Shown here: piece by piece, positions 6,516 through 57,395 of the stretch
How positions within the stretch are numbered: position 1 is the stretch's first letter
Layout of the letters: every line of letters starts with the position of its first letter
DNA from: Actinocorallia populi
GTDB lineage: Bacteria; Actinomycetota; Actinomycetes; Streptosporangiales; Streptosporangiaceae
Length of the DNA: 64,000 nt
Assembly: GCF_002995495.1 (NCBI RefSeq)
Contig: NZ_PVZV01000003.1
Coordinates: forward strand, 1 to 64,000
Direction of reading: 5' to 3'
Translations under genes and position numbers: made by a program
The notes under the pieces: generated by a model
What the model was told of the DNA's origin: nothing
The model's database searches: none
What the model saw: the letters and a program-made list of their open reading frames with translations, nothing else

Positions 6516-6531
6516 AAGTGAACACTCATCA
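6516..6531. promoter_or_regulatory. Cluster operator, site 1
   Basis: AAGTGAAC|ACTCATCA, a member of the recurring RAGTGARY|RYTCACTY family. It is 43 bp from the aldehyde dehydrogenase start and 157 bp from the SDR start in a divergent promoter region. An AAGT repeat lies on its left side, as at several other sites. Confidence 0.75.
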
Positions 6532-6586
6532 AGACTGGTATTCCCCTCCTGTTGAGAGTAAGGTTCTCTCGTTCGGAATTGGAGAT

Positions 6587-6598
6587 TTCGTAAACGAA
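6587..6598. promoter_or_regulatory. Short inverted repeat in divergent promoter
   Basis: TTCGT-AA-ACGAA, arms of 5 bp, lies in the AT-richer part of the promoter region between 6473 and 6688, nearer the SDR/ferredoxin/P450 operon. It is unlike the cluster operator and could be a second regulator's site or part of a promoter. Confidence 0.3.
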
Positions 6599-6687
6599 TA
6601 TCGCCATATTCAAGCAGACGGGCGGCCGGCAGCCCCCCGGCGCCCGGAGTACCCGCCAGCCCACCCGCCCCGAGCGAAGGAGCCACC

Positions 6688-7548
6688 ATGGGACGCGTTG
6701 AGGGAAAGGTCGCATTCATCACCGGAGCGGCGCGCGGTCAAGGCCGCAGCCACGCCGTCCGGCTGGCCGAGGAGGGCGCCGACATCATCGCGGTCGACCT
6801 CTGCCAGGACTACGAGACCGTCGACTACCCGATGGCGAGCCCGGACGACCTCAAGGAGACCGCGCGCCTGGTCGAGGCGCAGGGCCGGCGCATCGTGACC
6901 GCCCAGGCCGACGTCCGCGAGGCCGCCCAGCTCCGCGACGCCCTGGAGCGGGGCATCGCCGAGCTCGGCAAGGTCGACGTCGTCGTCGCGCAGGCCGGCA
7001 TCGCCCCGCTGCACGGCAACCCCCCGCTGCAGGCCTGGACCGACGTCGTCAACGTCAACCTGCTCGGCTCCATCAACGCGGTCCAGGCGTCCCTCCCGCA
7101 CCTGTCCGAGGGCGCCTCGGTCATCGCGGTCGCCTCCGCCGCCGCGCTCATGAGCCAGGGCATGGTGCAGAACCCCGGCACCAACCCCGGCGGCAGCGGC
7201 TACGCCTGGGCCAAGCGCGCCCTGTCGGACTACATGCACGAGCTGGGGCGGCAGCTCGCCCCCCGCTCGATCCGGGCCAACGTCGTGCACCCGACCAACG
7301 TCAACACCCAGATGCTGCAGAGCAAGCCCATGTACCGCTCCTTCCGCCCCGACCTGGCGGACCCCAAGCGCGAGGACGCCGAGCCGGCCTTCCGCGTGCA
7401 GCAGGCCATGCCGATCCCCTACATCGAAGCGGTGGACATCAGCAACGCCATCCTGTTCCTCGCCTCCGACGAGGCCCGCTACGTCACCGGCATGCAGCTG
7501 CGGGTCGACGCGGGCGGCTACCTCAAGTGGCACGACTTCCACGTCTGA
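6688..7548 (+). CDS. Mycofactocin-coupled SDR family oxidoreductase
   Basis: A 286-residue short-chain dehydrogenase. The glycine motif and its surroundings, TGAARGQGRSHAVRLAEEGA followed by IIAVDLC and a long insertion, match the SDR subfamily that works with mycofactocin instead of freely exchanging NAD. The active-site region is SGYAWAKRALSDY (Tyr/Lys pair). The role is alcohol oxidation, probably of the product of the P450 three genes downstream. GAAGGAG lies before the ATG. A ferredoxin gene follows after 15 bp, so SDR, ferredoxin and P450 form one operon. No mycofactocin synthesis genes are in this window. Confidence 0.9.
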   Translation: MGRVEGKVAFITGAARGQGRSHAVRLAEEGADIIAVDLCQDYETVDYPMASPDDLKETARLVEAQGRRIVTAQADVREAAQLRDALERGIAELGKVDVVVAQAGIAPLHGNPPLQAWTDVVNVNLLGSINAVQASLPHLSEGASVIAVASAAALMSQGMVQNPGTNPGGSGYAWAKRALSDYMHELGRQLAPRSIRANVVHPTNVNTQMLQSKPMYRSFRPDLADPKREDAEPAFRVQQAMPIPYIEAVDISNAILFLASDEARYVTGMQLRVDAGGYLKWHDFHV

Positions 7549-7563
7549 TCCGCAGGAGGAACC

Positions 7564-7764
7564 ATGAAGGTCAAGGTCGACCAGGCACTCTGCCAGGGCC
7601 ACACCCTCTGCGCCATGAAGGCCCCCGACGTCTTCGAGCTGGACGACGTCGACGGGCACTCCTCTCCGGTGAGCCCGGAGGTCCCGGCCGGCCTGGAGTC
7701 CCAGGTGGTCAGCGCCGTCAGGTCCTGCCCCGAGCGGGCGATCTCCGTGGAGGGCACAGCGTGA
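7564..7764 (+). CDS. 3Fe-4S ferredoxin (P450 redox partner)
   Basis: A 66-residue ferredoxin of the type that feeds electrons to actinobacterial P450s. Cluster ligands are CQGHTLC near residue 10 and SCPERAI near residue 55. The CxxHxxC...CP pattern, with His where a fourth Cys would be, indicates a 3Fe-4S or convertible cluster. AGGAGGAACC precedes the ATG. Its TGA stop overlaps the GTG start of the P450 (GTGA), so the two are translationally coupled and very likely functional partners. No ferredoxin reductase is adjacent. Confidence 0.93.
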   Translation: MKVKVDQALCQGHTLCAMKAPDVFELDDVDGHSSPVSPEVPAGLESQVVSAVRSCPERAISVEGTA

Positions 7765-9134: not shown

Positions 9135-9140
9135 CGAGCG

Positions 9141-9170
9141 GTCCGCCGGACGGCGTGCCGTCCGGCGGAC
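9141..9170 (+). terminator. Hairpin terminator after P450
   Basis: A perfect 13-bp stem, GTCCGCCGGACGG, with a 4-base CGTG loop, begins 7 bp after the P450 stop. There is no T-run, which is common for terminators in GC-rich actinobacteria. Confidence 0.7.
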
Positions 9171-9210
9171 ACCGCCTGCCTTGCCCTCATCGCCGCCGCG
9201 GGACTCCTCG

Positions 9211-9264
9211 CCGCTTTCCGGCGCCCCCGAGCGGAGGAAGCCGAGACGTCCGCTTTCCGGCGCC
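9211..9264. repeat. Short direct repeat
   Basis: CCGCTTTCCGGCGCC occurs twice, at 9211-9225 and 9250-9264, in the gap before the dehydrogenase gene at 9301. It may be a small tandem duplication, and no function is apparent. Confidence 0.5.
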
Positions 9265-9300
9265 GCTCCGCTCGCCCGCCTCTTCGAGAAAGAAGGACCG

Positions 9301-10119: not shown

Positions 10120-10202
10120 CGGGCCGATCTGAGATCATCGGGTGACGCGGTGCGGGACGGGCGCGGCCTGGACCACGTCACCGCACCTACTACGATGAAA
10201 GT

Positions 10203-10218
10203 ATGTGCCCACTCACCT
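10203..10218. promoter_or_regulatory. Weak copy of the cluster operator before the TetR gene
   Basis: ATGTGCCC|ACTCACCT. The right half (AGGTGAGT read on the other strand) fits the RAGTGARY half-site well, and the left half only partly. It ends 31 bp before the TetR start, where an autoregulatory site would be expected. Weaker than the 14 main sites. Confidence 0.35.
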
Positions 10219-10249
10219 CCTGTGGAGGACTGGCCGCCAGGAGAAGCTC

Positions 10250-10945
10250 ATGACCAAGCCGGTAGCCCCTTCCCCTCCCGCGGAGGAGACGTCACGGCCC
10301 GCCGAGAACGCGCCGCGACGGCGGCGGCTCACCGCCGAGGCCCGCAAGAGCTCGATCCTGGCCGCCGCGAGGCGCGCGTTCATCGAGACCGGTGACATGA
10401 ACGGCACGACGATCAAGGTGATCGCCGAGCACAGCGGCATCAGCGAGGGCGTGATCTACCGCCACTTCGAGAGCAAGGACCAGCTGTTCTTCGAGGCCGT
10501 GGTGGAGCCGCTCAAGCAGGCCGTGGACGACCTCGTCGCCGCGACCGCGGCCGTCGACCTGGACCAGCCGCTCACCCCCGAACGGCAGCTGAAGGCGATG
10601 ACCGGCCTCTACCGGCAGCTCATCTCGACGCTGGAGGAGATCCTCCCGCTGCTGGGCCTGGTGCTCTTCGGCGACCCGCAGGTGGCCCGGCGGTTCTACC
10701 AGGAGAACTTCATGGTGGCCATGGACCGCCTCGCCGAGGCCTGGCGCGAGGTCGAGCACAGGTACGGCTACCCGTTCGAGTCCCCGGACATCTCGGCCCG
10801 CGCGGTGATGGGCATCGCGCTCGTCATGGCGCTGGAGAGCCATCACGGCAAGGGTTTCGACCGGCACCGCGCGATGACCCTGATCAGCGACGGCACGGTC
10901 AAGGGCTTCTTCCCGCCGCTGGAACCGGCGCGCCGGCGCCAGTGA
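10250..10945 (+). CDS. TetR/AcrR family transcriptional regulator (candidate cluster repressor)
   Basis: A 231-residue TetR-type repressor. The N-terminal helix-turn-helix is clear: ARKSSILAAARRAFIETG, then IKVIAEHSGISEGVIYRHF and ESKDQLFFEAV. The C-terminal ligand-binding domain is all-helical, without a recognised motif. The ATG at 10250 is favoured over an upstream one because CCAGGAGAAG lies 7 bp before it. It is the only TetR gene within the catabolic region and carries a partial copy of the cluster operator upstream. It is therefore the leading candidate for the protein that binds the repeated 16-bp sites, probably releasing DNA on binding a CoA thioester as KstR2 does. That assignment is inference. 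Confidence 0.9.
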   Translation: MTKPVAPSPPAEETSRPAENAPRRRRLTAEARKSSILAAARRAFIETGDMNGTTIKVIAEHSGISEGVIYRHFESKDQLFFEAVVEPLKQAVDDLVAATAAVDLDQPLTPERQLKAMTGLYRQLISTLEEILPLLGLVLFGDPQVARRFYQENFMVAMDRLAEAWREVEHRYGYPFESPDISARAVMGIALVMALESHHGKGFDRHRAMTLISDGTVKGFFPPLEPARRRQ

Positions 10946-10954
10946 CGCCGCGAA

Positions 10955-10985
10955 GGGGGGCGAGGCTCGTGCCTCGCCCCCCTTT
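10955..10985. terminator. Strong hairpin terminator between convergent TetR and thiolase genes
   Basis: A 12-bp perfect stem GGGGGGCGAGGC / GCCTCGCCCCCC with a TCGT loop and a short TTT after it. It lies 9 bp after the TetR stop and 24 bp from the thiolase stop, so it can serve both. Confidence 0.85.
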
Positions 10986-11009
10986 CCCGTCCCGGGAGCC
11001 GGTCTCCCG

Positions 11010-12197: not shown

Positions 12198-12219
12198 CGT
12201 CCACTCCCGTCGAATAAGT

Positions 12220-12235
12220 AAGTAAGTATTCCCTC
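12220..12235. promoter_or_regulatory. Cluster operator, site 2
   Basis: AAGTAAGT|ATTCCCTC, extended to the left by a further AAGT repeat. It lies 22 bp from the thiolase start and 28 bp from the hydrolase start, so one bound protein could block both promoters. It is among the weaker matches to RAGTGARY|RYTCACTY. Confidence 0.6.
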
Positions 12236-12263
12236 ACATCCGTTCGGATAGTAACTTCGGGGC

Positions 12264-13142: not shown

Positions 13143-13178
13143 TCCGCCCTCGCCGTGCCCGCCGCCCGGAAGCCCGGC

Positions 13179-13214
13179 GCGGGGGCGGACCGGCCGTTCC
13201 GGGCCCGCCCCCGC
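13179..13214. terminator. Hairpin terminator between convergent genes
   Basis: A 10-bp stem GCGGGGGCGG / CCGCCCCCGC encloses a loop that itself holds CCGG...CCGG. It lies between the stops of the alpha/beta hydrolase (13142) and the D-aminoacylase-like gene (13221). Confidence 0.6.
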
Positions 13215-13220
13215 CGCGGC

Positions 13221-14927: not shown

Positions 14928-14962
14928 GGTCAAGGTCCTTCCGGCAGCACGGGAAGCTAAAA

Positions 14963-14978
14963 AAGCGGGTACTCACTT
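14963..14978. promoter_or_regulatory. Cluster operator, site 3
   Basis: AAGCGGGT|ACTCACTT, with a perfect right half-site. It is 35 bp from the D-aminoacylase-like start on the minus strand and one of two copies in this divergent promoter region. Confidence 0.75.
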
Positions 14979-15009
14979 ACAATAACGCGCCACTCCTGGG
15001 AAAATAAGA

Positions 15010-15025
15010 GAGTATGCATTCACTT
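15010..15025. promoter_or_regulatory. Cluster operator, site 4
   Basis: GAGTATGC|ATTCACTT, with a right half-site of AAGTGAAT on the other strand. It is 46 bp before the SDR start at 15072. Its centre is 47 bp from that of site 3, so each divergent promoter has its own copy. Confidence 0.7.
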
Positions 15026-16102: not shown

Positions 16103-16104
16103 AC

Positions 16105-17422: not shown

Positions 17423-17438
17423 AAGCGAACGCTCACAT
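17423..17438. promoter_or_regulatory. Cluster operator, site 5
   Basis: AAGCGAAC|GCTCACAT, a good match to RAGTGARY|RYTCACTY. It lies 61 bp upstream of the amidohydrolase start at 17361 and immediately after the stop of the upstream acyl-CoA dehydrogenase, so it marks a promoter inside a run of same-strand genes. Confidence 0.75.
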
Positions 17439-22619: not shown

Positions 22620-22635
22620 AATCCTTATAAGGATT
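22620..22635. promoter_or_regulatory. Perfect 16-bp palindrome between acyl-CoA dehydrogenase operon and GntR gene
   Basis: AATCCTTA|TAAGGATT, fully symmetric, 16 bp from the dehydrogenase start and 75 bp from the GntR start. The likely ligand is the adjacent GntR protein. A half-site-like AAGTAATC overlaps its left edge. Confidence 0.6.
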
Positions 22636-22677: not shown

Positions 22678-22713
22678 ATGACTCCCGAGCCGTGCAGGAA
22701 ACCGACCGCGTGA
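22678..22713 (+). other. Possible 11-codon leader ORF overlapping the GntR start
   Basis: ATG at 22678 opens an 11-codon frame (MTPEPCRKPTA) whose TGA at 22711 overlaps the GTG start of the GntR gene. It could couple translation or be chance; no ribosome site is evident before it. Confidence 0.25.
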
Positions 22714-23516
22714 CCACCGCCCGCCCCCGCCGCGTGCCCCAGCGCCGCATCGCCGAGACCGTCGCGGCCGAGCTGCGCACCCGCATCCTGGCCGGTGAGG
22801 ACGGCTACCGGCTGCCCACCCAGGAGCAGCTGGTGCAGGAGTTCGGCGTCAGCTACCCCTCGATCCGGGAGGCGCTGCGGATCCTGGAGACGGAGGGGCT
22901 GGTGACGGTACGGCGCGGCAGCGTCGGCGGGGCCGAGGCGCACCGCCCCGACGAGGCGTCGGCCGCCTACCACCTCGGCCTCGTCCTGCAGGGCGGCCGG
23001 GTCACGCTGCGCGACCTCGCCGAGGGCCTGCGGATGCTGGAGCCGATGTGCGCCGCCGAGTGCGCGCGCCGACAGGACCGCCTCGAGGAGGTCGTGCCCG
23101 CGCTCGCCGCCAACGTCGAGGCGTCCGCCGCCCTCGTCGCGGACGGCGTGGCCTTCACCCGCACCGCCCGGGAGTTCCACGACCTCCTCGTCTCGTTCAC
23201 CCCGAACGCCACGGTCCGCTACATGGTCAGCAGCCTGGTCGCCCTGTGGTCGGCGCAGGAGGAGTCCTGGGCGGAGGTCCTCACCCGGCGCGGCGAGTAC
23301 CCCTCCCCCGCCGAGGCGGAGAGCGCCGTCCGCGTCCACCGGCGCATCCTCGACGAGATCGCCGCGGGCCGCGCGCCGGAGGCCGAGCGGGTGTACCGCT
23401 CCCACCTCGCCGCGACCCAGCGGCTGCTGCTGGACCACTTCGACGACGGCGTCGTGAACGCCTCCTCCGCCGGCGCCCGCCAGGCCGTGCGGTCCGCCCG
23501 CGGCACCCGGATCTGA
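22710..23516 (+). CDS. GntR family transcriptional regulator (FadR-type, FCD domain)
   Basis: A 268-residue regulator. The winged helix-turn-helix covers roughly residues 10-75: RRIAETVAAELRTRILAG, LPTQEQLVQEFGVSYPSIREALRILETEGLV, then a GSVGGA wing. The rest is a helical FCD-type ligand domain with ARRQDRLEEV, FHDLLVSF and VHRRILDEIAAG, consistent with binding a small carboxylate or CoA-linked effector. The GTG at 22710 is chosen because the frame upstream is antisense to the dehydrogenase gene; CAGGAAA is the only ribosome-site candidate. It is divergent from the five-gene operon and probably controls it. Confidence 0.9.
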   Translation: MTTARPRRVPQRRIAETVAAELRTRILAGEDGYRLPTQEQLVQEFGVSYPSIREALRILETEGLVTVRRGSVGGAEAHRPDEASAAYHLGLVLQGGRVTLRDLAEGLRMLEPMCAAECARRQDRLEEVVPALAANVEASAALVADGVAFTRTAREFHDLLVSFTPNATVRYMVSSLVALWSAQEESWAEVLTRRGEYPSPAEAESAVRVHRRILDEIAAGRAPEAERVYRSHLAATQRLLLDHFDDGVVNASSAGARQAVRSARGTRI

Positions 23517-26653: not shown

Positions 26654-26669
26654 AAGTGAGTAACCATTT
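26654..26669. promoter_or_regulatory. Cluster operator, site 6
   Basis: AAGTGAGT|AACCATTT. The left half-site is perfect and the right one degenerate. It is 45 bp before the amidohydrolase start at 26608, in the gap after the NTF2-like gene. Confidence 0.7.
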
Positions 26670-30410: not shown

Positions 30411-30426
30411 TAGCAAACGCTCACTT
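30411..30426. promoter_or_regulatory. Cluster operator, site 7
   Basis: TAGCAAAC|GCTCACTT, with a perfect right half. It lies 56 bp from the LLM gene start and 53 bp from the DUF35 gene start, midway in the divergent promoter region. Confidence 0.75.
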
Positions 30427-32994: not shown

Positions 32995-33010
32995 AAGTGA
33001 GCACACACTC
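32995..33010. promoter_or_regulatory. Cluster operator, site 8
   Basis: AAGTGAGC|ACACACTC, with a perfect left half. It is 31 bp before the amidohydrolase start at 33042 and 33 bp after the SDR stop, so the amidohydrolase has its own regulated promoter. Confidence 0.72.
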
Positions 33011-36143: not shown

Positions 36144-36208
36144 GGTAACCGCCTCCTCTGACAACGCCCGGCCCGTGCTTGGGAGGTGCGGCCTTCCGGG
36201 CGGTGTGG

Positions 36209-36301
36209 TCAGCGGTGGCGGCCGGAGCAGTAGAGGTCATGGAGTGCGGCGACGAGGACGGCGATCAGGAGGACGGTGCCGATGACGCCCAGGGAGGTCA
36301 C
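36209..36301 (-). CDS. Possible 30-residue membrane peptide
   Basis: A GTG at 36301 opens a 30-codon frame beginning VTSLGVIGTVLLIAVLVAAL, which is a single hydrophobic helix, and ending in a basic CSGRHR tail. Its start overlaps the stop of the frame at 36298 by the GTGA pattern common in this genome, which gives some support. It is too short to be sure. Confidence 0.35.
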   Translation of the reverse strand: MTSLGVIGTVLLIAVLVAALHDLYCSGRHR

Positions 36302-36594
36302 AGGGCCTCCTCGATCTCGGTCTGGGCGGCCAGGGCTTCGGCGAGGAGTTCGCAGGTGTCCTCGATGAGGGTCATGGCCGGGCCCGCGGTCAGTTCCTCG
36401 GGGGTGAGGTGGGAGCGGCCGAGGCGGGTGGCGATGAGGGCGGTGCCCTGTGTCGTGGGGCGGATCAGCCAGGACGGGTGGAGGGTGCGGAGCGTTTCCC
36501 ACTGCCGGTTCGTGTGCGGGTCCTCTGGTCGCGGGTCGGGTTCGTCGCGACCAGGGTGCGGGCGGGCGGTGGTCTGCCGGCTCTTTCCGAACGG
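36298..36594 (-). pseudogene. Possible small ORF or gene remnant without a start codon
   Basis: An uninterrupted frame with protein-like composition, including RQWETLRTLHPSWLIRP and LTPEELTAGPAMTLIEDT, runs from the preceding stop at 36595 to TGA at 36298. The only ATG is at 36375, too late to include the plausible part, and no GTG or TTG lies upstream. It may be a decayed gene or part of the disrupted gene to its right. No family was recognised. Confidence 0.3.
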
Positions 36595-37399
36595 TCAGCA
36601 GCCGGGCGGGACGGTGGTGTCGGCGCTCATGGTGATCCCGGTCCCGGGTTTCGGGTCGAAACGGGGCTGGACGGTGGCGGGGTCGGGGATCACAGGGGCG
36701 GGGACGGGAACGCCGAAGTCGGTGTAGGTGATGAGGGTGTCGGACGTCAGTCCGGCTGCGACGCGTGTGGTGGGGCCGGTGTGGAGGGGGCGCAGGTCAT
36801 AGCGGAGCAGGGTGCCGGTGGTCTCGTCGAGGTACAGGTCGATCACGAGGGTGGCGGCGGGGCAGTGGGGGTCCGGCATGCGGGCGATGGTCTGCTTGCG
36901 GAACATGTCGACCAGGCCGGTGAACCTGCCGGCGGGACGTCCGCGCACGGTGGTCGTGCCTTCGTCGTGGACGTAGGTGAGCGCGCGCTCGTAGCTCGTC
37001 CAGGTGATCCATTCCACGGCGTCCAGGACCCGCCACGGCTGCCGGGAGTCAGGCGGATGGTCGGGGTGTACTGGTCGTCGCCGTTCAGGACGGTCTCGAT
37101 CCGTGAGGTCCGCAGGGTGCCGTCGCCGCCGCGGTCGGCGCTGGTCCCGGTGATCCGGCCGATCCTGGCGCGGTAGTCCATCAGCCCGGTCGTCTCCCGG
37201 CTCTTCAGCGTCCTGTGCTCGTCGCGCACCTCGGTCCTCTGCTCCTGGCGGGTGCTCGTACGGTTCCCCGTCCAGCCGTGGAAGGCGGCGAGCGCCTTCC
37301 TTTCGCGTTCGCTCGCCGCCGGAAGAACGGTGTGCTCGGACCGGCAGGCGTTCCCAACGCCAGCAGCATGACCATCAGAACACAGCGGATCCGCGACAT
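36595..37399 (-). pseudogene. Frameshifted secreted/lipoprotein-like gene
   Basis: Three overlapping minus-strand frames look like one protein broken twice. The first, from ATG at 37399, is a signal sequence (MSRIRCVLMVMLLALG). A shift near 37350 moves to GNACRSEHTVLPAASERERK, which would supply a lipobox-like Cys. The second frame continues through TLRTSRIETVLNGDD to LTPGSR. A second shift near 37035-37045 leads to QPWRVLDAVEWITWTSYERA and on to the TGA at 36595. Reconstructed length is about 265 residues. It resembles actinobacterial secreted proteins of unknown function. Either the gene is decaying or the sequence has two indel errors. Confidence 0.6.
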
Positions 37400-37706
37400 G
37401 TCCACCCTTCAGCCGACACACAACGAAAGGATAATTTCAGACCGGATAGTTCACCGTTCCGCCGATTCACCTGAGGGCGATCAGGCCCGTTTGCCAAGAA
37501 CGGGCCCTTTTCTCTTTGCCGTTCTCCCGTTTCGCGACTTCCGCGAAGCAATGCATGGCCAAGGGCAAGGACTCCTGGTGGCGTGTCATCAAGCGAAACT
37601 CGAACCGTTCAGGGGTTCTGACATGGCGCTTCCGCCGATGGCCGCGGGAGAAGCAGCGATCGACGCCGAACAGTCGACCGATGTCTCTCATCCGGACGGC
37701 GCACGC
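37400..37706. other. Non-coding interval between pseudogene and STAND ATPase
   Basis: No convincing gene is seen. The stretch is less GC-rich than the rest. A hairpin at 37484-37506 (GGCCCGTT, 7-base loop, AACGGGCC) is followed on the plus strand by CTTTTCTCTTT. It looks like a rho-independent terminator pointing right, although no plus-strand gene ends here. Confidence 0.4.
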
Positions 37707-40094
37707 TCAAGGCGGTCCCTCTGCCTGGTCGATTCGCGAGCGCACTTCTGCGGCCAGGGGCGAAGCGACGTCCTCCAGCAGAACGAGGGCACGCCGCAGA
37801 TGAAGGACTCCTTCGTCCCGCCGGCCGAGCTCGAGGGAGAGGTCTCCCAGAGCTCTTTCGGTATCGGCTTCCTTGCGCTTGTCTCCGAGCGTTCTGTACA
37901 CGTCCAGGCAGTTCTCCAGATGGGAAAGAGCCGTGGACTCCTGGCCGGTCTCTACGTACGCGACTCCCAAGCTGTACAGCGCGTCGGCCTCCCCCAGCCG
38001 GTCTCCCAGCTCGCGGTAGGTAAGAAGAATCCCTTGCAGATCCTCTAGAGCTCGAGCTCCGAGACCGGACATGACCCGAACGTCCGCGATACCGTGCAGC
38101 ACGCGTGCTTCACCCACCGCGTCACCCAGTTCGCGGTAGACCGGAAGGACGGCCTGGTAATGGTCCACGGCTTCCGGCCCGCGGCCGGAGAGACGGTGCG
38201 TGTCCGCGATGCTGTGCCTGGCGCGTGCCTCTGCGAGGCGGTTGCCCGCGCCCTGGTAGGAGGCGAGGGCCTGCTCGTAGATGTCTATGGCGGTGCCATA
38301 GCGCAGCTGCATGCGCTCCAGATCACCGATGGAGTGCAGGACTCTCGCCTCGTGGTGCGCGTCGTCGAGTTCCCTGTAGATGTTCAACGCCTGCTGATAG
38401 AGCGTCAACGCCTTCTCGTGGTCGCAGGTGAGCCGGGCGATGTCGCCCTCGAGGAACCTCATGTCGGCGCCGCAGGCTCGGTCCCCGAGTTCATCGCACC
38501 ATCGCGCCGCTCTGTGACACAGTTCCGCTGCGTCGGTCCAGTATCCCTTGAGCCGCAGGAAGTAGGCCATGGCGCGGGCCAGACGGGCGGCGCGTGCTCC
38601 TTCACCGGCGTTCACCGCAAGTTCCACGCAGGCGTGCACGGTGGGCCGCTCGTTCTCCAACCATGCGACGGCCTCCGTGTGGTCGGAGAACGACGGCAGG
38701 ACCGCCGGACTCATATCGACCGCGTCCTCCATGTCCCGGAAGCCGAGAAGGTTGATGATCCTGTCGACCCGGATCGTCATCACCGTGTAGTAATCGATGA
38801 GCCGGTTCCTGGCTGCGATGATCTCGCCGGGTGTGTCCTCGCCCGCGCGGTGCCTCGCGTACTCCCGTACGAGGTCGTGCAGTTGGTAGCGCCGGTACAT
38901 GGGTTCTTCGAGCAGGTTCTGGTCGACGAGAGCGTCCAGCCGCCCGGCGGCCTCGGCGACCGTCGCACCGTCGAGCGCGGCGGCGGCATGGACTCCGAAG
39001 TCATGGTCGGGGTGAAGCGCCAGCCTGCGCAGGAAACGTCTCTGCTCCTGATCGAGCGATTCATATGAAAGGTCGAAAGCAGACATCAGCACTTCATGCC
39101 CCATTAGCACCGCTTCACGCCCAAATCGGTCGGCAGTCAGCTCTGCGAGCAGATCCTGGACGCTCCAGGCGGGGTGGAGGACGAACTGCCTGGCGACGAG
39201 CCGCAGAGCCAAAGGCAGGTGACCGCAACGAGAGGCGATGTCCTGCAGTTCGTTTGCGGCGCCCGCCACTCGTTCCCGGTCCGTGGACCGGGTCAGGAGC
39301 CTGATGGCGTCGCGGTCGTCGAAAGTACCCAGCACTATGGTGCAGCCCCCGTCCACGACCATGCGGCGGCGGCTTGTGACGATCACCGTGCTCGGGCCGG
39401 AGGGAAGGAGAGCCAGCACCTGGTCGGCATCGGCGGCGTTGTCGAGAAGAAGCAGGATCCGGGAATCCGCGGTCTCCGAGCGCCACAGCGAAGCCCGCTC
39501 CTCCAGAGTCTCGGGAATCTGCCGGGCCGGGATGCCCAGCGCGCCCAACAGCGCCTCCAGCGCTCGTTCCACTGTTACCGGCGGTCGATCCGTGCTACAT
39601 GCGTGCAGGTTGAGGAAATACCTGCCGTCCGGGTGCGCACCCGCGATCCGGTGTGCGGCCCGCACCGCGAGCACGGTCTTGCCGACTCCCGCCATTCCAC
39701 TGATCGTGCAGACGGCGGGCGGGCCGGAACCCGTATGCCGTGGGCTGCCTTCTATCCGCGCCAGTTCTTCTTCCCGGTCGACGAAGTCCATGAGGTCGGA
39801 GGGAAGGCCGTGCCGTATCCGCACGGGGATGGCGGAGGCGATCTGCGCCGCTTGGGCCGGCCCGAGCAGTTGTTCACCCCTGACACCGGCGATCTCCCGC
39901 TGAGAACGCTGCGCCTGCGACAGGCCCACCGCCGCCACGACCAGACCGGCCGTTCCCATGAAAGCACCCACCACGCTGCCGAGCTGGTCCGCCGTTTCCA
40001 GGCCCAGGTATACGACCAGCGTGCCGAACCCAGTCACCGACAGCCCTATGGCCACCACCGACAGAACGATGACGATCCGACGCCGTATGGACAC
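37707..40094 (-). CDS. Membrane-anchored NB-ARC/TPR STAND ATPase
   Basis: A 795-residue signal-transduction NTPase. Two hydrophobic segments (about residues 7-30 and 37-59) place the N-terminus in the membrane. The P-loop GMAGVGKT is at 133-140, the Walker B strand is RILLLLDNAAD, the sensor is TVIVTSRRR, and the GLPL-like motif is CGHLPLALRL. A winged-helix region (YQLHDLVREYAR) follows, and about six tetratricopeptide repeats fill residues 520-780 (for example EARVLHSIGDLERM and EARARHSIADTHRL). GTG at 40094, with GGAAG 8 bp before it, is preferred to an upstream TTG. Soluble relatives are SARP-type regulators or defence ATPases; this one lacks a DNA-binding or effector domain, so its output is unclear. 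Confidence 0.88.
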   Translation of the reverse strand: MSIRRRIVIVLSVVAIGLSVTGFGTLVVYLGLETADQLGSVVGAFMGTAGLVVAAVGLSQAQRSQREIAGVRGEQLLGPAQAAQIASAIPVRIRHGLPSDLMDFVDREEELARIEGSPRHTGSGPPAVCTISGMAGVGKTVLAVRAAHRIAGAHPDGRYFLNLHACSTDRPPVTVERALEALLGALGIPARQIPETLEERASLWRSETADSRILLLLDNAADADQVLALLPSGPSTVIVTSRRRMVVDGGCTIVLGTFDDRDAIRLLTRSTDRERVAGAANELQDIASRCGHLPLALRLVARQFVLHPAWSVQDLLAELTADRFGREAVLMGHEVLMSAFDLSYESLDQEQRRFLRRLALHPDHDFGVHAAAALDGATVAEAAGRLDALVDQNLLEEPMYRRYQLHDLVREYARHRAGEDTPGEIIAARNRLIDYYTVMTIRVDRIINLLGFRDMEDAVDMSPAVLPSFSDHTEAVAWLENERPTVHACVELAVNAGEGARAARLARAMAYFLRLKGYWTDAAELCHRAARWCDELGDRACGADMRFLEGDIARLTCDHEKALTLYQQALNIYRELDDAHHEARVLHSIGDLERMQLRYGTAIDIYEQALASYQGAGNRLAEARARHSIADTHRLSGRGPEAVDHYQAVLPVYRELGDAVGEARVLHGIADVRVMSGLGARALEDLQGILLTYRELGDRLGEADALYSLGVAYVETGQESTALSHLENCLDVYRTLGDKRKEADTERALGDLSLELGRRDEGVLHLRRALVLLEDVASPLAAEVRSRIDQAEGPP

Positions 40095-40174
40095 CGCGCA
40101 ATCTTCCGCCCCCGCCAAACCGGAAGGGAACAAGGTCCGGCAAAAAGTCCACAACCGGCAATATTTTCCTTTAC

Positions 40175-40187
40175 CCTTGGTCCAAGG
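40175..40187. promoter_or_regulatory. Inverted repeat upstream of the STAND ATPase
   Basis: CCTTGG-T-CCAAGG, a perfect 6-1-6 repeat, 80 bp upstream of the ATPase start and 97 bp before the divergent small gene at 40285. A possible operator. Confidence 0.35.
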
Positions 40188-40284
40188 TGTATCGGCCGTC
40201 GCGCACCTCGACTTCTGCTTCTTTCACGACCGCCCGCGAAGTGGCGGCAGAGCCCATGACAGGGGCTCCCAGGAGGGGCCGGTC

Positions 40285-40548
40285 ATGCGGAGCACGATTT
40301 TCGGAGAAGGCGGAACATTCGTCCGGCTGTGGGGGCACCTCAGCGACACCGGCCATGCGCCGATCCTGCTGCCCGGATTCCCCGAGTACCGCGAGCGAGA
40401 GCCGGGAGCCGAATCCATCAAGCTGTTCTGCGGACTGCTTCTGAACGGCCTGTTCCAGACCCCGGACACGATCCAAACGATCATGCAGATGGTCAACGAA
40501 CCCTCGACCGCCGCAGAGCAGACGACCGAAAGGCTGGATTCGCCGTAA
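40285..40548 (+). CDS. Small protein of unknown function, upstream of DUF397 gene
   Basis: An 87-residue protein with no recognised family. Its start MRSTIFGEGGTFVRLWGHL has AGGAGG 8 bp upstream, and third codon positions are mostly G or C, both supporting a real gene. A 101-residue frame on the opposite strand (40171-40476) has no ribosome site and was judged a shadow. It lies 76 bp before a DUF397 gene. DUF397 genes usually follow a helix-turn-helix regulator of about 280 residues, which is absent here. Confidence 0.55.
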   Translation: MRSTIFGEGGTFVRLWGHLSDTGHAPILLPGFPEYREREPGAESIKLFCGLLLNGLFQTPDTIQTIMQMVNEPSTAAEQTTERLDSP

Positions 40549-43783: not shown

Positions 43784-43799
43784 AAGTGAGTACTCACCT
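43784..43799. promoter_or_regulatory. Cluster operator, site 9
   Basis: AAGTGAGT|ACTCACCT, the most symmetric copy, with a perfect GTGAGTACTCAC core. Only 15 bp from the D-aminoacylase-like start, so a bound repressor would cover the transcription start. Confidence 0.82.
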
Positions 43800-43814: not shown

Positions 43815-43830
43815 TAGCGGGCGTTCACTC
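43815..43830. promoter_or_regulatory. Cluster operator, site 10
   Basis: TAGCGGGC|GTTCACTC, 38 bp before the aldehyde dehydrogenase start. Its centre is 31 bp (about three helical turns) from site 9, so two bound dimers would lie on the same DNA face. Confidence 0.72.
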
Positions 43831-47869: not shown

Positions 47870-48586
47870 TTATGGAAGCGGGACGACCTCTTCCCGGACG
47901 GCGAGGAACGCGGACCGGCCGAAGAGGCCGGGGTCCGCGCCGTCGGGGACGTTCTCGGCGAACCAGGCGATGCGGGTCCGCAGTCCTGCGAGGTCGTCGA
48001 AGTAGACCTCGTTGACCGCGTCGTAGGCCCACTCGCCCGCCTTGCGCACGTACGGGTGGCTCTGCACGTAGGCCTGGCCGCGCACCGCCTCGGGGATGGG
48101 CGTCTGCCTCTCCGCGCCCGGTCCGCGGACCCGGCCCGCGTGGTCGCGCCAGCGGGCGGAGAACTCGGCGGAGGTCAGGTCCGCGGCCCGGACGGCGACG
48201 GCCATGTGCTTGAACCGCACGCCGCCCGCCCGCCACCGCCGGTCCAGCCATGCGGCGCCGCGCAGCACCGCCTCCTCCGCGACGACCACCGGGCTCGCGT
48301 CGGAGTCGACGACCCGGTCGAGCCGGCTCAGCACCGCCCCTCCTCTGGGCGTGCCGACCCAGCCCCGGAACCTGCGCAGGTGGTCCGCGTCGGCGAACCA
48401 GCCGATCTCGACCCCGTCATGGACGGGGTCGGGGAGGCCGGGCAGGGTCGTGCACAGCACGATGCGGGAGGGTCGGACGTCCGGCGGCGCCTGTGCGACC
48501 GCCGCGACCGCGGTCGGCCAGACCTGCGCGAGTTCCCCGGGCGTGGCGCCCGCACGCCTGGTGACGAACCGGATCCCTTTGATCAT
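47870..48586 (-). CDS. EthD-domain protein
   Basis: A 238-residue protein with two tandem alpha/beta-barrel units. The second contains FKHMAVAVRAADLTSAEFSA and RWRDHAGRV, matching the EthD pattern; the first (MIKGIRFVTRRAGATPGEL) is a degenerate copy. EthD proteins accompany oxygenase systems, for example the EthB P450 for alkyl ethers, but their chemistry is not established. The ATG at 48586 overlaps the stop of the oxidoreductase upstream by 4 bp. Confidence 0.85.
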   Translation of the reverse strand: MIKGIRFVTRRAGATPGELAQVWPTAVAAVAQAPPDVRPSRIVLCTTLPGLPDPVHDGVEIGWFADADHLRRFRGWVGTPRGGAVLSRLDRVVDSDASPVVVAEEAVLRGAAWLDRRWRAGGVRFKHMAVAVRAADLTSAEFSARWRDHAGRVRGPGAERQTPIPEAVRGQAYVQSHPYVRKAGEWAYDAVNEVYFDDLAGLRTRIAWFAENVPDGADPGLFGRSAFLAVREEVVPLP

Positions 48587-51500
48587 GCGGGCGGTCCGGT
48601 GAGTGCGGCGGCCCGTGCCCGCCAGGCGGCCGCGGCCTGCTCCTTGATCCCGGCGTAGCCCCTGACCGGCATGACGGACGACGCGAGCTCCACGAGCGTG
48701 TCGTACGGCAGTCCTGCCCGGAGGCTCTCGCCGACCAGCCGCTCGTACTCCGCGATGAGCGCCCGTTCGAGGCGCCGGTCCGGGTCCAGGCCGAAGACGT
48801 CCAAGGGTGTTCCCCGGAGGCGCCTCATCCGGCGCAGTACGCGAAATGCCAGCTCGTACGGTCTGCCCATCGGCAGTTTCCGCTTCATCCCCAGACGGCG
48901 CAGGGTGGGCGGGTGGAGGTGGAACGTCACCGTGTACGGGCCCTCGATGCCGAGGTCGCTCGCGATCCGGTCGTAGTCGGCCTTCAGGTGCAGGCGGGCC
49001 ACCTCGTACTCGTCCTTGTAGGTGAGGAGCCTGAACCATGCCTCGGCCACGGCCCGGGTGAGCGCCCAGCCGCGGTCGGCGCCGTCGTGCGCCGCCGCGC
49101 GCTCCACCAGGTCGAGGAACCGGGCGGCCCTCGCCGTGTCCTGGTAGTCGACGGCCTGCGCGGCCCGCCGGACGAGGACGTCGCGCAGTTCGTCCGGCAG
49201 GTCCCTGCCGTCCAGCAGCGGGGCGGCCGCCGCGAGTGCGCCGGGTGAAGGGTCGAAGAGGGTGCTCACGCTCCCGGCCCCGTCCAAAGCGGCTTCGACG
49301 GCCGCCGGGTCGTGTGCCGCCCAGCGCCCCCAGGCGAACGCCGCCAGGTTGGCCTCAGCCGCGCGGCCTCTCCTCATCGCCTTCTCGAGTTCGGCGAACG
49401 GGACCGGCAGGCCGCCGAGCTGGAACGCCGCGCCGAGCAGCACGACGTTCGCGAGCAGGTGGTCGGCGAAGACGTTCTCGGCGATGCGCCGCGAGTCGAC
49501 GAAGGCGGTGTTCTCCTTGCCGACGCGTTCGGTGATCTCCTTTTCGAGGTCCGCGAGACCGGGCGGGGCGAGGCCGCTCTGCAGCATGGCCGCGGTGGGG
49601 GTGAGCCGGGAGTCGATGACGGCGACCGTGCGGCCGGGGCGGACCTTCGCGAGGTGGTTCGCGGCGGCGGCCTGCAGGATGTCGCCGGACAGGTAGAGGT
49701 CGGCCCCGCCGGAGCCGACGGCCGCCGCGCCCAGGGCATCCAGGTCGATGGCCAGGTGGAGGTGGGAGACGACCGCGCCGGCCTTCTGGGAGAGCCCGGT
49801 CTGGTCCATGCCGCCGACCGCCAGCCCCGCGGACTCGGCGGAGGAGGCGATGAGCCGGTTCGCGGTGATGACGCCCGTGCCGCCGATGCCCGTGAAGTAG
49901 ACGCCGTACCGGCCGTCGATGGCGGGCGTGCGAGGCTCGGGGAGCGTGCCGGTCGGCGGTGTCGGCCGTACCTCGGTCCGCTTCCGCGATCTGCGCCGTC
50001 CGCGTTTCTTCGGCTTCAGGGTCACGAACGAAGGGCAGTCGCCTTCGAGGCAGGTGTAATCGCGGTTGCAGGACGGGTCGTGGATCTGCCGTTTGTCGCC
50101 GAACTCCGTCTCGACCGGCAGCACCGACAGGCAGTTGCTCTTGGTGCCGCAGTCCCCGCATCCCTCGCACACCGCCTCGTTGATGACCACCCGTCGCGGT
50201 GGCTCGGGCAACAAGCCGCGTTTGCGCAGCCGCCGGGCCTCCGCCGCGCACCGCTGGTCGTAAATGATCACCGTGACGCCCGGCACCGACCGCAGCCGCT
50301 CCTGGGCCTCGTCGAGCCGGTCGCGGCCCAGCACCTCCACGCTCCGCGCCCAGCGCGCCCGCCGTCCGTACCGCTCGGGATCCTCCGCGCACACGACGAT
50401 CCTCCCGACGCCCTCGGCCTCCAGGGCTCGGGTCATCGCCGGGACGTCCATCAGCCCGGTGACGTCCTGGCCGCCGGTCATGGCCACGGCCGCGTTGTAG
50501 AGGATCTTGAAGGTGATGTCCGCTCCGGCGGCCACGCTCGCCCGGATGGCGAGGGTCCCGGAGTGGCTGAGCGTGCCGTCGCCGAGGTTCTGGATGAGGT
50601 GCGGTTCGGCGACGAACGGCGACAGACCGATCCACGGCACGCCCTCGGCGCCCATCGGCGTCGGCGGCAGGCTCCGCGTGCCCTGGTGGCGCGCCTCGAA
50701 GTACATGATCCCGTGGCAGCCCACTCCCCCGCCCGCCAGCGCCCCGTCCGGCAGGACGGTCGAGCGGTTGTGCGGGCACCCACTGCAGTAGCCCGGAGCG
50801 CGAGAAGCGACGGGCAGCAGCGGCAGCCGGGCCCGCCGCGGCTCCTCCGGGCGGGCGAGCCCGGGGAGAAGCCGCGCAAGGACCTTCGCCACCGAGGACG
50901 GATCCAGTTCACCGGCGGACGACGTGAGCGGCCTCCCCGCCCTGTCCCGCTTCCCGTTCGCGGGAACCGGACTCCCCGCCTCGTGCAGGATGCTCCGCAA
51001 CTGCGTCTCGACGAACGGCCGCTTCTCCTCGACGACGGCGAGTTCCTCAACGGAGGCCGCGAACTCCAGGACGGTCTCCTCGACCAGCGGGTAGGTCATG
51101 CCGAGCCGCAGGATCCGCACGCCGGCCGCTTCCGGTGACGTCCCGAGGTCAGTGAGCGCCTGGAGCACGTCGAAGTACGTCCGCCCCGCGCACACCACCC
51201 CCAGACGCGCGCCCGGCCCGGCCCCCGTCACGCGGTCGAGCCCGTTGTGGCGCGCGTAGGCGCGGGCGGCGCGCAGCCGGTGCTCCGACACCAGCGCCTC
51301 CTGTCCGGGCACGGCATGCGGCCCGATCCTCCCCAGAGGCCGGTGGCGCCACGGTTCCCCGTCGATGACGACGCCCTCGGGATCGCGCGGGGCGTGCCGC
51401 CCGGGATCGAGGTCGACGGTCCCGATCCCGTCGGCGACCGCGGTGACGATCTTCATTCCCGCCCACGTTCCCGCGTACCGGGAGAGGCGGAAGGCGTGCA

Positions 51501-52005
51501 CCCCGAGGTCGAGCACGTCCTGCTGGTCACCGGGAACGAGCACGGGGACGCACATGTCCTCGAAGGTGTACTGGCTGTCGCAGGCCAGCGTGGACGACTT
51601 CGACGCCGGGTCGTCGCCGCAGAACATGACGACGCCGCCGTTCGGCCCCGCGCCCATCGCGTTCGCGTGCTTGACCGCGTCCCCGCTGCGGTCGAGGCCG
51701 GGCCCCTTGCCGTACCAGGCGCCCGCGACGCCGTCGACGCCGTCGTAGTCCACGACCGCGCCCATCTGGCTGCCCCAGACGACGGCGGCGGCGAGCTCCT
51801 CATTGAGGCCGGGGCGGTGGACGATCCGGTTCTCGGCGAGCGCGTCGCCCAACCGGTCGAGGGCCAGGTCGAAGCCGCCCAGCGGCGAGCCCGGGTATCC
51901 GGAGACCATCGTGGCCGTCCTCAGCCCGTCCCTCTCGTCGAGGTGCCGCCGCAGGACCAGCAGGCGGACGAGCGTGTCGACCCCCGACAGCACCTCGGCC
52001 GTCAC
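48583..52005 (-). CDS. Fused indolepyruvate:ferredoxin oxidoreductase-type 2-oxoacid oxidoreductase
   Basis: A 1140-residue protein joining the alpha (TPP-binding) and gamma parts. The thiamine region is PHLIQNLGDGTLSHSGTLAI, preceded by SGYPGSPLGG of the pyrimidine domain. The iron-sulfur centre has CEGCGDCGTKSNC and later CNRDYTCLEGDC, and the gamma domain begins GIGGTGVITANRLI. It oxidatively decarboxylates an aryl- or branched 2-oxoacid to acyl-CoA with ferredoxin as acceptor. GTG at 52005 with GGAGG upstream. It sits in an operon with a P450 and an amidohydrolase and could feed electrons to a ferredoxin used by the P450. Confidence 0.92.
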   Translation of the reverse strand: MTAEVLSGVDTLVRLLVLRRHLDERDGLRTATMVSGYPGSPLGGFDLALDRLGDALAENRIVHRPGLNEELAAAVVWGSQMGAVVDYDGVDGVAGAWYGKGPGLDRSGDAVKHANAMGAGPNGGVVMFCGDDPASKSSTLACDSQYTFEDMCVPVLVPGDQQDVLDLGVHAFRLSRYAGTWAGMKIVTAVADGIGTVDLDPGRHAPRDPEGVVIDGEPWRHRPLGRIGPHAVPGQEALVSEHRLRAARAYARHNGLDRVTGAGPGARLGVVCAGRTYFDVLQALTDLGTSPEAAGVRILRLGMTYPLVEETVLEFAASVEELAVVEEKRPFVETQLRSILHEAGSPVPANGKRDRAGRPLTSSAGELDPSSVAKVLARLLPGLARPEEPRRARLPLLPVASRAPGYCSGCPHNRSTVLPDGALAGGGVGCHGIMYFEARHQGTRSLPPTPMGAEGVPWIGLSPFVAEPHLIQNLGDGTLSHSGTLAIRASVAAGADITFKILYNAAVAMTGGQDVTGLMDVPAMTRALEAEGVGRIVVCAEDPERYGRRARWARSVEVLGRDRLDEAQERLRSVPGVTVIIYDQRCAAEARRLRKRGLLPEPPRRVVINEAVCEGCGDCGTKSNCLSVLPVETEFGDKRQIHDPSCNRDYTCLEGDCPSFVTLKPKKRGRRRSRKRTEVRPTPPTGTLPEPRTPAIDGRYGVYFTGIGGTGVITANRLIASSAESAGLAVGGMDQTGLSQKAGAVVSHLHLAIDLDALGAAAVGSGGADLYLSGDILQAAAANHLAKVRPGRTVAVIDSRLTPTAAMLQSGLAPPGLADLEKEITERVGKENTAFVDSRRIAENVFADHLLANVVLLGAAFQLGGLPVPFAELEKAMRRGRAAEANLAAFAWGRWAAHDPAAVEAALDGAGSVSTLFDPSPGALAAAAPLLDGRDLPDELRDVLVRRAAQAVDYQDTARAARFLDLVERAAAHDGADRGWALTRAVAEAWFRLLTYKDEYEVARLHLKADYDRIASDLGIEGPYTVTFHLHPPTLRRLGMKRKLPMGRPYELAFRVLRRMRRLRGTPLDVFGLDPDRRLERALIAEYERLVGESLRAGLPYDTLVELASSVMPVRGYAGIKEQAAAAWRARAAALTGPPA

Positions 52006-53243: not shown

Positions 53244-53247
53244 GGCG

Positions 53248-54480: not shown

Positions 54481-54495
54481 GGGCACAACGTAACA

Positions 54496-54511
54496 GGGTG
54501 AGTAATCACTT
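54496..54511. promoter_or_regulatory. Cluster operator, site 11
   Basis: GGGTGAGT|AATCACTT, a good copy 15 bp from the P450 start at 54480. It is one of two copies in the divergent promoter region. Confidence 0.78.
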
Positions 54512-54576
54512 TCTAGAGCCTCTGCTCGCCTGCCGCCCTGAGCTCTGGCGCCGGGCGGTTCGAGGCTGTATTTAGT

Positions 54577-54592
54577 AAGTGAGCGTTCTTTC
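54577..54592. promoter_or_regulatory. Cluster operator, site 12
   Basis: AAGTGAGC|GTTCTTTC, with a perfect left half, 39 bp before the aldehyde dehydrogenase start. It has the TTAGT extension on the left seen at several sites. Confidence 0.72.
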
Positions 54593-54631
54593 ATCTACCG
54601 GCCCGCCCGTGTACCGCCCGAAGGAGCTTCC

Positions 54632-56128: not shown

Positions 56129-56138
56129 CCGGCAGGGG

Positions 56139-56165
56139 CGCGCGGCCGGACGGGCCGGCCGCGCG
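56139..56165. terminator. Strong hairpin terminator between convergent genes
   Basis: An 11-bp stem CGCGCGGCCGG / CCGGCCGCGCG with a 5-base loop, 10 bp after the aldehyde dehydrogenase stop and 1 bp before the Rieske gene stop; it can serve both strands. Confidence 0.8.
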
Positions 56166-56166
56166 T

Positions 56167-57327
56167 TCAGCGGTGCTCCCGCGCCTCCCGGAGGGCGGCT
56201 TCGAACCCCCGGTGCAGGTGCTGGGGCGCCGGTTCGTTGCGGCCGAAGACGACCGTGTCGAGCAGGCCCGTCCGGACGCCGGGCTCGGTGCGCCCGGCGA
56301 CCCAGAAGTCCTCCCCGTCCACGACCGTCTCGCAGATCCAGGGCGCCATCTCCGTGGCCTTGGCCAGCTCCGCCTCGCTGAGGCCGGGCCGGAAGTAGGA
56401 GGTGTGCAGCACCTCGGAGGTTCTCTCGTCGACGGGCACGATCTGCCACAGCTCGATGTGCCGGCTGTCCAGGGTCAGGTTGGTGTTGGGGAAGAGCGCG
56501 TACTGGTAGCTGAAGTGCTGCGCCACGTCGCCCCACTCCTGCTCCGGGACGTCCTTCAACGCGTCGATGGAACGCAGCGCCGAGCAGTTGCGCAGGTGGC
56601 GCCCGAACGGGTCGAAGGTCAGCACGCCGCCGTGGGCGTAGGTGGCCAGCGTCTTGCTGTGCAGGAAGTCGAAGTGGTAGTTCTCGCGGAAGGTGTCGAG
56701 TGTGACCTTCCAGTTCGCCCGGACCCGGTGGACGTGCGGCTCGCCGTGGATCCGCCAGTCCGCGAAGTCGAACATGGCGAGCTCGTCCGCGAGGCCGGGG
56801 CCGAGGAAGGCGTCGACGTCGGGGGCGGGGCCGGGCCGCAGGCGGCCGATGATCAGCCCGTACCCCTCGGCCACCGGCAGCTCGACGAGCCCCTTGTCCT
56901 CCTTGCACATGCCCTCGAACGCGCGCGCGGCGGGCATGCGCAGCAGGTCGCCCCTGACGCCGTAGGTCCAGGCGTGGAAGGGGCAGGTGAACCTGGTGCC
57001 CTCGCCCGCGCCGTCGACGACGCGCACGCCGCGGTGGCGGCAGGCGTTCACCAGCGCGCGGACCTTCCCGTCCCCGTCGCGGGTCAGCAGGACCGGCGTG
57101 CCCATCAGGTCCACGGTCCGGTAGGTCCGCGGGGCCGGCAGGGCGCCCGAAAGGCACAGGACCAGCGGCAGGTCGCGGAACAGGACCTCGGACTCCTCCT
57201 CGTGGCGCGCCCTCGAGTAGACGTCGGTCGGCAGCTCCATCACGTCGTCGGCGAGATCGGTCGTGCGGTGCTCGATGTGGTCCAGCAACCGGCGTGCGAG
57301 ACCGCGCTCCAGGGCTTCCCTATCCAC
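56167..57327 (-). CDS. Rieske aromatic ring-hydroxylating oxygenase, alpha-subunit-like
   Basis: A 386-residue Rieske non-haem iron oxygenase. The 2Fe-2S site is NACRHRGVRVV and TCPFHAWTYG, that is CxH with CxxH. The mononuclear iron region is RENYHFDFLHSKT, with two His ligands. There is no separate beta subunit, as in KshA/GbcA-type oxygenases. It would dihydroxylate, hydroxylate or demethylate a ring or amine, using electrons from a ferredoxin. The GTG at 57327 has no ribosome site and starts 14 bp from operator site 13, so translation may be leaderless. It is divergent from the amidohydrolase at 57427. Confidence 0.93.
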   Translation of the reverse strand: MDREALERGLARRLLDHIEHRTTDLADDVMELPTDVYSRARHEEESEVLFRDLPLVLCLSGALPAPRTYRTVDLMGTPVLLTRDGDGKVRALVNACRHRGVRVVDGAGEGTRFTCPFHAWTYGVRGDLLRMPAARAFEGMCKEDKGLVELPVAEGYGLIIGRLRPGPAPDVDAFLGPGLADELAMFDFADWRIHGEPHVHRVRANWKVTLDTFRENYHFDFLHSKTLATYAHGGVLTFDPFGRHLRNCSALRSIDALKDVPEQEWGDVAQHFSYQYALFPNTNLTLDSRHIELWQIVPVDERTSEVLHTSYFRPGLSEAELAKATEMAPWICETVVDGEDFWVAGRTEPGVRTGLLDTVVFGRNEPAPQHLHRGFEAALREAREHR

Positions 57328-57341
57328 GGCCAGAGGCTAAC

Positions 57342-57357
57342 AAGTAATCGCTCACTC
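57342..57357. promoter_or_regulatory. Cluster operator, site 13
   Basis: AAGTAATC|GCTCACTC, 14 bp from the Rieske oxygenase start on the minus strand. Confidence 0.74.
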
Positions 57358-57379
57358 TACAAGGAATGCCGATGTTTGA

Positions 57380-57395
57380 GAGTGAACACTTGCTT
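57380..57395. promoter_or_regulatory. Cluster operator, site 14
   Basis: GAGTGAAC|ACTTGCTT, 31 bp before the amidohydrolase start. Its right half, AAGCAAGT read in reverse, is identical to the KstR2 half-site core. Confidence 0.74.

Follow-up and report, generated by a model that had tools for sequence, protein, structure and literature searches.

The first 64,000 nucleotides of contig NZ_PVZV01000003.1 of Actinocorallia populi (this whole stretch is called the window below) carry a large catabolic locus in which a near-palindromic sequence, RAGTGARY|RYTCACTY, recurs before catabolic operons and in which a TetR-family regulator is encoded at 10250. Genes were called from codon-position GC content and Pfam matches, and operon limits were inferred from gene order. 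The window encodes five amidohydrolase-fold proteins of family PF04909 (AH2_1 to AH2_5) together with P450s, a Rieske oxygenase and beta-oxidation enzymes, and it also encodes an OB-fold/thiolase-like pair and acyl-CoA dehydrogenase pairs in which one partner has the C-terminal Pfam domain only.

An operator family in the catabolic promoters of the window

The initial annotation had listed 14 sites as a single operator family, and this family proved to be real. All 14 are present where they had been placed, across 51 kb, each agreeing with the consensus at 13 to 15 of 16 positions, and consensus matches in the window (10 places at 14/16 or better, nine at 13/16) far exceed those in three mononucleotide shuffles combined (one at 14, six at 13). 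A position weight matrix (PWM) trained on the 14 sites brought out a fifteenth operator, in the promoter of the TetR gene itself (site 10199). Leave-one-out (LOO) scores of the training sites ranged from 19.4 to 32.8, and the site at 10199, which was excluded from training, scored 20.8. With the full matrix the 15 sites scored 20.8 to 35.1 in the registers of Table 1; the site at 6516 reached 25.4 in that register and 31.5 in a register 4 bp to the left.

The sites had also been said to lie in promoter regions before nearly every catabolic operon, and both statements held. After refinement of start codons the core was non-coding in 15 of 15 sites, as against 8.6% of all 16-mers in the window, and of 18 intervals between a core and the start codon that it faces, 15 measured 15 to 61 bp. 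In shuffled non-coding segments (n = 300), the number of matrix hits of at least 18 averaged 0.01 and never exceeded 1; the observed number was 14. Between the 5-kb and 58.6-kb marks, 11 of the 12 promoter regions counted had a site; neither of two unrelated islands entered this count, nor did the promoters of MerR and MFS/TetR2.

What did not stand was the width of 16 bp. Alignment of 14 sites with their flanks revealed a conserved element of about 24 to 26 bp, TAAGWAAGTGAGYRYTCACTTWCTTA. None of the sites is perfectly palindromic: the strict pattern AGTGAVNNBTCACT has no match among them. The genome's sole match to this pattern, at C2:868615-868628, is not one of the places to which the matrix scan of its stretch gave more than 12.

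The initial annotation had proposed a weight-matrix scan of the whole genome, and the scan made pointed the same way: across 78 stretches outside the window (1.56 of 8.25 Mb), no place scored above 20 and four scored above 18. We also searched the whole 8.25-Mb genome with a sequence-only covariance model of 26 positions built from the 15 sites. It returned 21 strand-matches at E ≤ 10, all inside the window, covering 11 of the 15 sites and missing those at 10199, 43815, 57342 and 57380; 150 of 490 first-look candidates were scored. These data support the view that the sites form a single operator family which, to the extent of these searches, occurs at this locus alone.

Table 1. Predicted operators and regulators of the catabolic locus. 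Scores are from the 14-site matrix.
Feature	Position	Strand	Genes served or context	Score and remarks
Operator	6516..6531		Between ALDH1-CaiB_1-AH2_1-ACAD operon (-) and SDR1-P450_1-HIBDH operon (+); gene starts 6440, 6688	PWM LOO 22.5
Operator of TetR gene	10199..10214		35 bp before ATG 10250	PWM 20.8 out of sample; conserved in L001, L002, L003, L008
TetR-family regulator, predicted binder	10250..10945	+		231 aa; PF00440, E 6.1e-14
Operator	12220..12235		Between thiolase (-) and 292-aa protein (+)	PWM LOO 28.9; site beside thiolase orthologue in several loci
Operator	14963..14978		YtcJ-like amidohydrolase 1, YtcJ1 (-)	PWM LOO 31.2; aligned in window and 11 loci
Operator	15010..15025		SDR2 (+)	PWM LOO 28.7; aligned in window and 11 loci
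Operator	17423..17438		DitZ-like PF04909 protein AH2_2 (-, start 17361)	PWM LOO 28.0; site at AH2_2 orthologue in many loci
Predicted GntR site, separate palindrome AATCCTTATAAGGATT	22620..22635		Between 22604 operon and GntR gene	
GntR/FCD regulator	22692..23516	+	Divergent from acyl-CoA dehydrogenase operon	PF00392, PF07729; orthologues in several loci
Operator	26654..26669		AH2_3-ADH-SDR3 operon (-)	PWM LOO 32.8
Operator	30411..30426		Between LLM-CaiB_2 (-) and OB-fold/thiolase-like/SDR4 (+)	PWM LOO 29.5
Operator	32995..33010		AH2_4 (+)	PWM LOO 31.6
Operator	43784..43799		YtcJ2-P450_2 (-)	PWM LOO 29.3; contains GTGAGTACTCAC, the SlmA 12-mer (available text of PMC3116907)
Operator	43815..43830		ALDH2 (+)	PWM LOO 19.4, lowest of 14
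Operator	54496..54511		P450_3-AH1-IOR operon (-)	PWM LOO 28.6
Operator	54577..54592		ALDH3 (+)	PWM LOO 27.1
Operator	57342..57357		Rieske oxygenase (-)	PWM LOO 20.5
Operator	57380..57395		AH2_5 (+)	PWM LOO 24.3

Operators accompany orthologues of the TetR gene across genera

The protein encoded at 10250 has a TetR_N DNA-binding domain and a site in its own promoter. Orthologues 71 to 92% identical to it occur in Thermomonospora, Actinomadura, Amycolatopsis, Nocardia, Parafrankia and others, and their DNA-binding helices are nearly invariant. We assembled 29 orthologue loci, 18 from a scan of genome contigs with the TetR protein and 11 from a search of the class, in which 17 of 296 genomes matched at E ≤ 1e-15; 12 of these, the query genome included, had close orthologues (at least 74% identity), and the rest matched at 27 to 36%. 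With the window-trained matrix, a site scoring at least 18 was found within 300 bp upstream of tetR in 24 of the 29 loci (14/18 from the named genomes and 10/11 from the class search, or 22/27 distinct loci, two class-search loci being repeats). At the loci of distant homologues (n = 8, 27-36% identity, one row a duplicate), none reached a score of 10 upstream.

The association extends beyond the regulator gene. Sites precede the same neighbouring genes in many loci of other genera, although gene order differs, and the pair of operators at the YtcJ1/SDR2 promoter could be aligned between the window and 11 loci. At a cut-off of E ≤ 1.5, the covariance model hit nine of the 12 genomes that encode a close TetR orthologue, as against 52 of the 284 that lack one (Fisher p = 5e-5; 8 of 11 with an orthologue and p = 2e-4 when the query genome is excluded), values that are optimistic because the genomes are related. 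In one of the genomes (G241), all eight listed hits lie on its tetR contig. The initial annotation had named the TetR protein at 10250 as a candidate binder, and the site in its own promoter, the co-conservation across genera and the lack of sites at distant homologues all favour this assignment. Judged from these sequences, this TetR protein is very probably what binds the sites, as an autoregulated local repressor.

The operator closely resembles the SlmA-binding site

Among the published sites with which we compared the operator, the nearest was that of SlmA, a TetR-family protein of Escherichia coli. The SlmA-binding site (SBS) and the window operator share the core GTGAGYRYTCAC and the flanks AAGTA...TTAC. 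The SlmA consensus oligo AAGTAAGTGAGCGCTCACTTACGT, as given in the available text of PMC4423959, scored 33.0 with the window matrix (possible maximum 44.2) and the site SBS17 scored 28.3, while the highest score among 3000 random 24-mers was 19.6; another SlmA site, SBS12, reached only 12.4. We also compared sites on the 14 outer core positions alone, where the window sites scored 12.9 to 20.2 and the maximum among 20000 random 16-mers was 15.9. On this measure the SlmA consensus scored 24.0 of a possible 24.5.

The proteins are much less alike than their sites. SlmA and the window TetR share the motif YRHFxSK, but the similarity covers the helix-turn-helix only (36% over 45 residues, E 1e-5) and is no better than for other TetR proteins encoded in the genome. 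The genome has 14 weak matches to the SlmA family model, none of which reached the cut-off with 150 of 187 candidates scored; at 31 bits against a cut-off of 120, the window TetR ranked seventh of them. Because it is not the best match of its own genome to the SlmA model, the helix-turn-helix resemblance is no evidence by itself. The two also differ in setting: SlmA acts in cell division, and by the available text of PMC3116907 its sites are scattered along much of the chromosome of E. coli, mostly within coding regions, whereas the window sites are promoter-located and, as far as searched, in one catabolic locus. We thus rejected SlmA identity or function for the window TetR on site distribution and family score, while the resemblance of the sites stands. 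By sequence comparison, the operator is nearly the published SlmA consensus and the protein is not SlmA.

SlmA occupies its site as a pair of dimers. By analogy, two dimers are likely to bind the window operator as well, since a second AAGT step is present in its half-site, which also fits the extended SlmA site.

In three other actinobacterial genomes (L103, L104 and L105), one very strong TGAGTGAGYGCTCACTCA site each was seen at a locus without a TetR orthologue, that in L105 near a gene which by eye resembles an ABC exporter. A different regulator may read the SlmA-like site in these three.

The operator shares its layout with that of KstR2

KstR2 is a TetR-type local repressor of the cholesterol ring-degradation cluster, and the initial annotation had suggested that the regulator might be a relative of it. 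The resemblance of the operators was upheld: the KstR2 operator AAGCAAG-NN-CTTGCTT has the same 7-2-7 palindrome layout, although its half-site AAGCAAG differs from AAGTGAG of the window at two of seven bases. No special kinship was seen between the proteins. In a fold comparison KstR2 (4w1u) ranked 15th at 22% identity, among many TetR proteins with similar scores, and these ranks are weak because the structure model of the window TetR is of low confidence (mean pLDDT 63). KstR2 was also absent from the 60 best of 80 PDB sequence matches to the window TetR.

Proposed regulation and alternative explanations

We consider it highly probable, from the sequence comparisons above, that the TetR-family repressor encoded at 10250-10945 uses the sites as its operators. 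In the uninduced state it would occupy the ~24-bp palindrome TAAGWAAGTGAGYRYTCACTTWCTTA at 11 promoter regions, among them its own, and block RNA polymerase; a pathway intermediate, either a CoA thioester or an acid, would release it, so that some 30 genes would be switched on together. Derepression is the most likely mechanism, and it is from sequence that we infer binding, repression and the class of ligand.

Several observations weigh against this assignment. Five of the 29 orthologue loci have no upstream site of at least 18: L003 (15.0), L015 (13.2), L036 (15.4), L017 and L018, the last two having only a partial gene match. In part of the loci tetR has its upstream interval in common with a divergent Rieske or YtcJ1 gene, and the best site found there may not be tetR's own. 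The 52 of 284 orthologue-less genomes with a model hit at E ≤ 1.5 indicate that similar palindromes serve other regulators, and 3 of the 12 orthologue genomes have no such hit, though matrix sites precede tetR in all three. In the genome searches the model missed four of 15 sites with 150 of 490 candidates scored, and the matrix scan covered 1.56 of 8.25 Mb. Overlap with a −10 promoter element is unsupported too: we rejected the flanking TTA as such an element, since TANNNT is as frequent on the non-gene side (4/12) as on the gene side (6/18), and because the counts are alike on both sides the flanks were taken as part of the operator. Finally, the core of the KstR2 consensus is a true look-alike of the operator: at 16.3 it falls among the window sites' own scores and exceeds the random maximum.

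That KstR2 score is one reason to weigh binding by another regulator, whether a KstR2-like protein encoded elsewhere or one of the other regulators within the window, GntR (22692), TetR2 (60181) and MerR (45845), of which GntR is conserved in several loci. We regard this as unlikely, since the operator precedes orthologues of the 10250 gene across genera, GntR adjoins a different palindrome, and the compared stretches, which cover part of each cluster, gave no match to TetR2 or MerR at E ≤ 1e-30. It is still harder to see the sites as nucleoid-occlusion sites of an actinobacterial SlmA counterpart and not as transcriptional operators. The score of the SlmA consensus oligo, above all 3000 random 24-mers, speaks for such a role, but the 15 window sites are non-coding and, as far as searched, belong to one locus, unlike the SlmA sites described in the available text of PMC3116907, and the window TetR falls far short of the SlmA family cut-off. 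Least credible of all is chance or AT-rich promoter bias. Such a bias would be expected because the motif is AT-rich in a genome of 72% GC, but shuffled non-coding segments gave at most one hit against 14 observed, and 1.56 Mb of the same genome, promoters included, held no place above 20.

The gene content beside the window TetR suggested one further identity, namely that the sites belong to the motif X regulon of Rv0767c among the phytosterol-induced genes of Mycobacterium. The window TetR is flanked by an Rv0768-like aldehyde dehydrogenase, an SDR, a P450 and a hydroxyisobutyrate-dehydrogenase-like gene. According to the available text of PMC6593523, a Mycobacterium that degrades phytosterols has motif X and an Rv0767c orthologue, G155_05115; 14 operons carry the palindrome, P450 and aldehyde dehydrogenase genes among them, and a site lies near the start codon of the regulator, an arrangement like that of the window.

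We took 29 loci around Rv0768 homologues and identified an Rv0767c-like protein by an expected string in 12 of the 16 loci searched; we take these genes to be Rv0767c orthologues from their position beside Rv0768 and the family match of the neighbour. The palindrome GGACANNTGTCC lies beside the Rv0767c-like gene in 11 of the 12, with one base different in L078. It agrees with the enrichment of GAC and GTC at Rv0767c sites reported in the available text of PMC10312376; PMC4482099 likewise lists a motif for Rv0767c in its available text. A window-type site scoring above 14 occurred in none of the 29 loci, and above 12 in L086 only (13.6). The proteins are not orthologous either: tblastn of the window TetR against the 29 loci returned nothing at 1e-3, and 10 of the 12 Rv0767c-like proteins gave any blastp match to it at E ≤ 10, the best at E 0.001. 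In A. populi itself the gene that exceeds the Rv0768 cut-off is located elsewhere, at C7:426031. On the different palindrome and the lack of orthology we rejected the motif X identity, and membership of that regulon is very improbable.

A second regulator probably serves the acyl-CoA dehydrogenase operon

The repressor encoded at 10250 does not appear to control everything. The sole counted promoter region without a site is that of the acyl-CoA dehydrogenase/enoyl-CoA hydratase operon starting at 22604, and next to this promoter are a GntR gene and a palindrome of another kind. The four loci inspected (L014, L016, L108 and L112) have a CTTATAAKGAT core in the corresponding interval. On this sequence evidence, the GntR-type regulator probably serves the main acyl-CoA dehydrogenase operon as a second regulator of the cluster.

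The pathway and its likely substrate class

PDB matches were compared for three of the five PF04909 paralogues (AH2_1, AH2_2 and AH2_4). The best match of AH2_2 was DitZ (8uyr, E 1e-69), followed by PtmU3 of the platensimycin pathway (E 1e-33); AH2_4 likewise matched DitZ best (E 5e-31) with PtmU3 second, and AH2_1 matched an uncharacterised hydrolase (4dzi) best, again with PtmU3 second. The available text of PMC10401708 describes PtmU3 as a dinuclear hydroxylase of the amidohydrolase superfamily, and that of PMC10811679 groups PtmU3 with AibH2 as amidohydrolase-related dinuclear oxygenases. The dit cluster, which contains a P450 and a Rieske-type oxygenase (PMC13063091, available text) and is also the subject of PMC10710418 (likewise in its available text), resembles the window in combining these two enzyme types with a DitZ-type protein, a link that rests on the PDB molecule name DitZ. 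The window differs from the dit and platensimycin pathways in its CoA-transferases, its F420-type LLM enzyme and its five PF04909 paralogues.

The P450s, the Rieske oxygenase, the acyl-CoA dehydrogenase pairs and the OB-fold/thiolase-like pair make it likely, as judged from gene content, that a ring compound is broken down through CoA esters. That the substrate is a polycyclic terpenoid is a guess. A literature search found no published description of the regulator, the operator or the cluster among its best-ranked matches, and the locus is a conserved catabolic cluster, in keeping with the undescribed catabolic supercluster that had been suspected.

Taken together, these parts allow a composite picture that we put forward tentatively, as possible but short of probable. 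An unstudied actinobacterial TetR repressor would read the extended site of E. coli SlmA, probably as a dimer pair, and thereby control an undescribed polycyclic-terpenoid supercluster built around DitZ/PtmU3-like amidohydrolase-fold oxygenases, with cluster and operators common to Thermomonosporaceae, Nocardia, Amycolatopsis and Frankia relatives despite reshuffled gene order. The analysis gives a large conserved catabolic cluster a likely regulator and a precise operator, and its substrate therefore becomes searchable, since in these genera membership of the pathway can be read from the operator and a reporter on one of the promoters would reveal the inducer. The comparison also suggests that two phyla use almost the same palindrome, one for a cell-division protein and the other for a repressor of catabolism.

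Other genes in the window

A second TetR gene (TetR2, 60181-60867) adjoins an MFS exporter and an FMN reductase and has no operators nearby. The island at 34269-40548, also without operators, encodes a HEAT-repeat protein and an NB-ARC/TPR protein, and its third-position GC content is below that of the catabolic genes. The 292-aa protein to the right of the operator at 12220 looks by eye like an alpha/beta hydrolase and has no Pfam match at 1e-5. Within the P450_3-AH1 operon, 48583-52005 encodes a protein of 1140 aa with POR (pyruvate ferredoxin oxidoreductase) and DUF6537 domains; it has relatives in several related clusters and seems unusual for an aerobic ring-degradation cluster.

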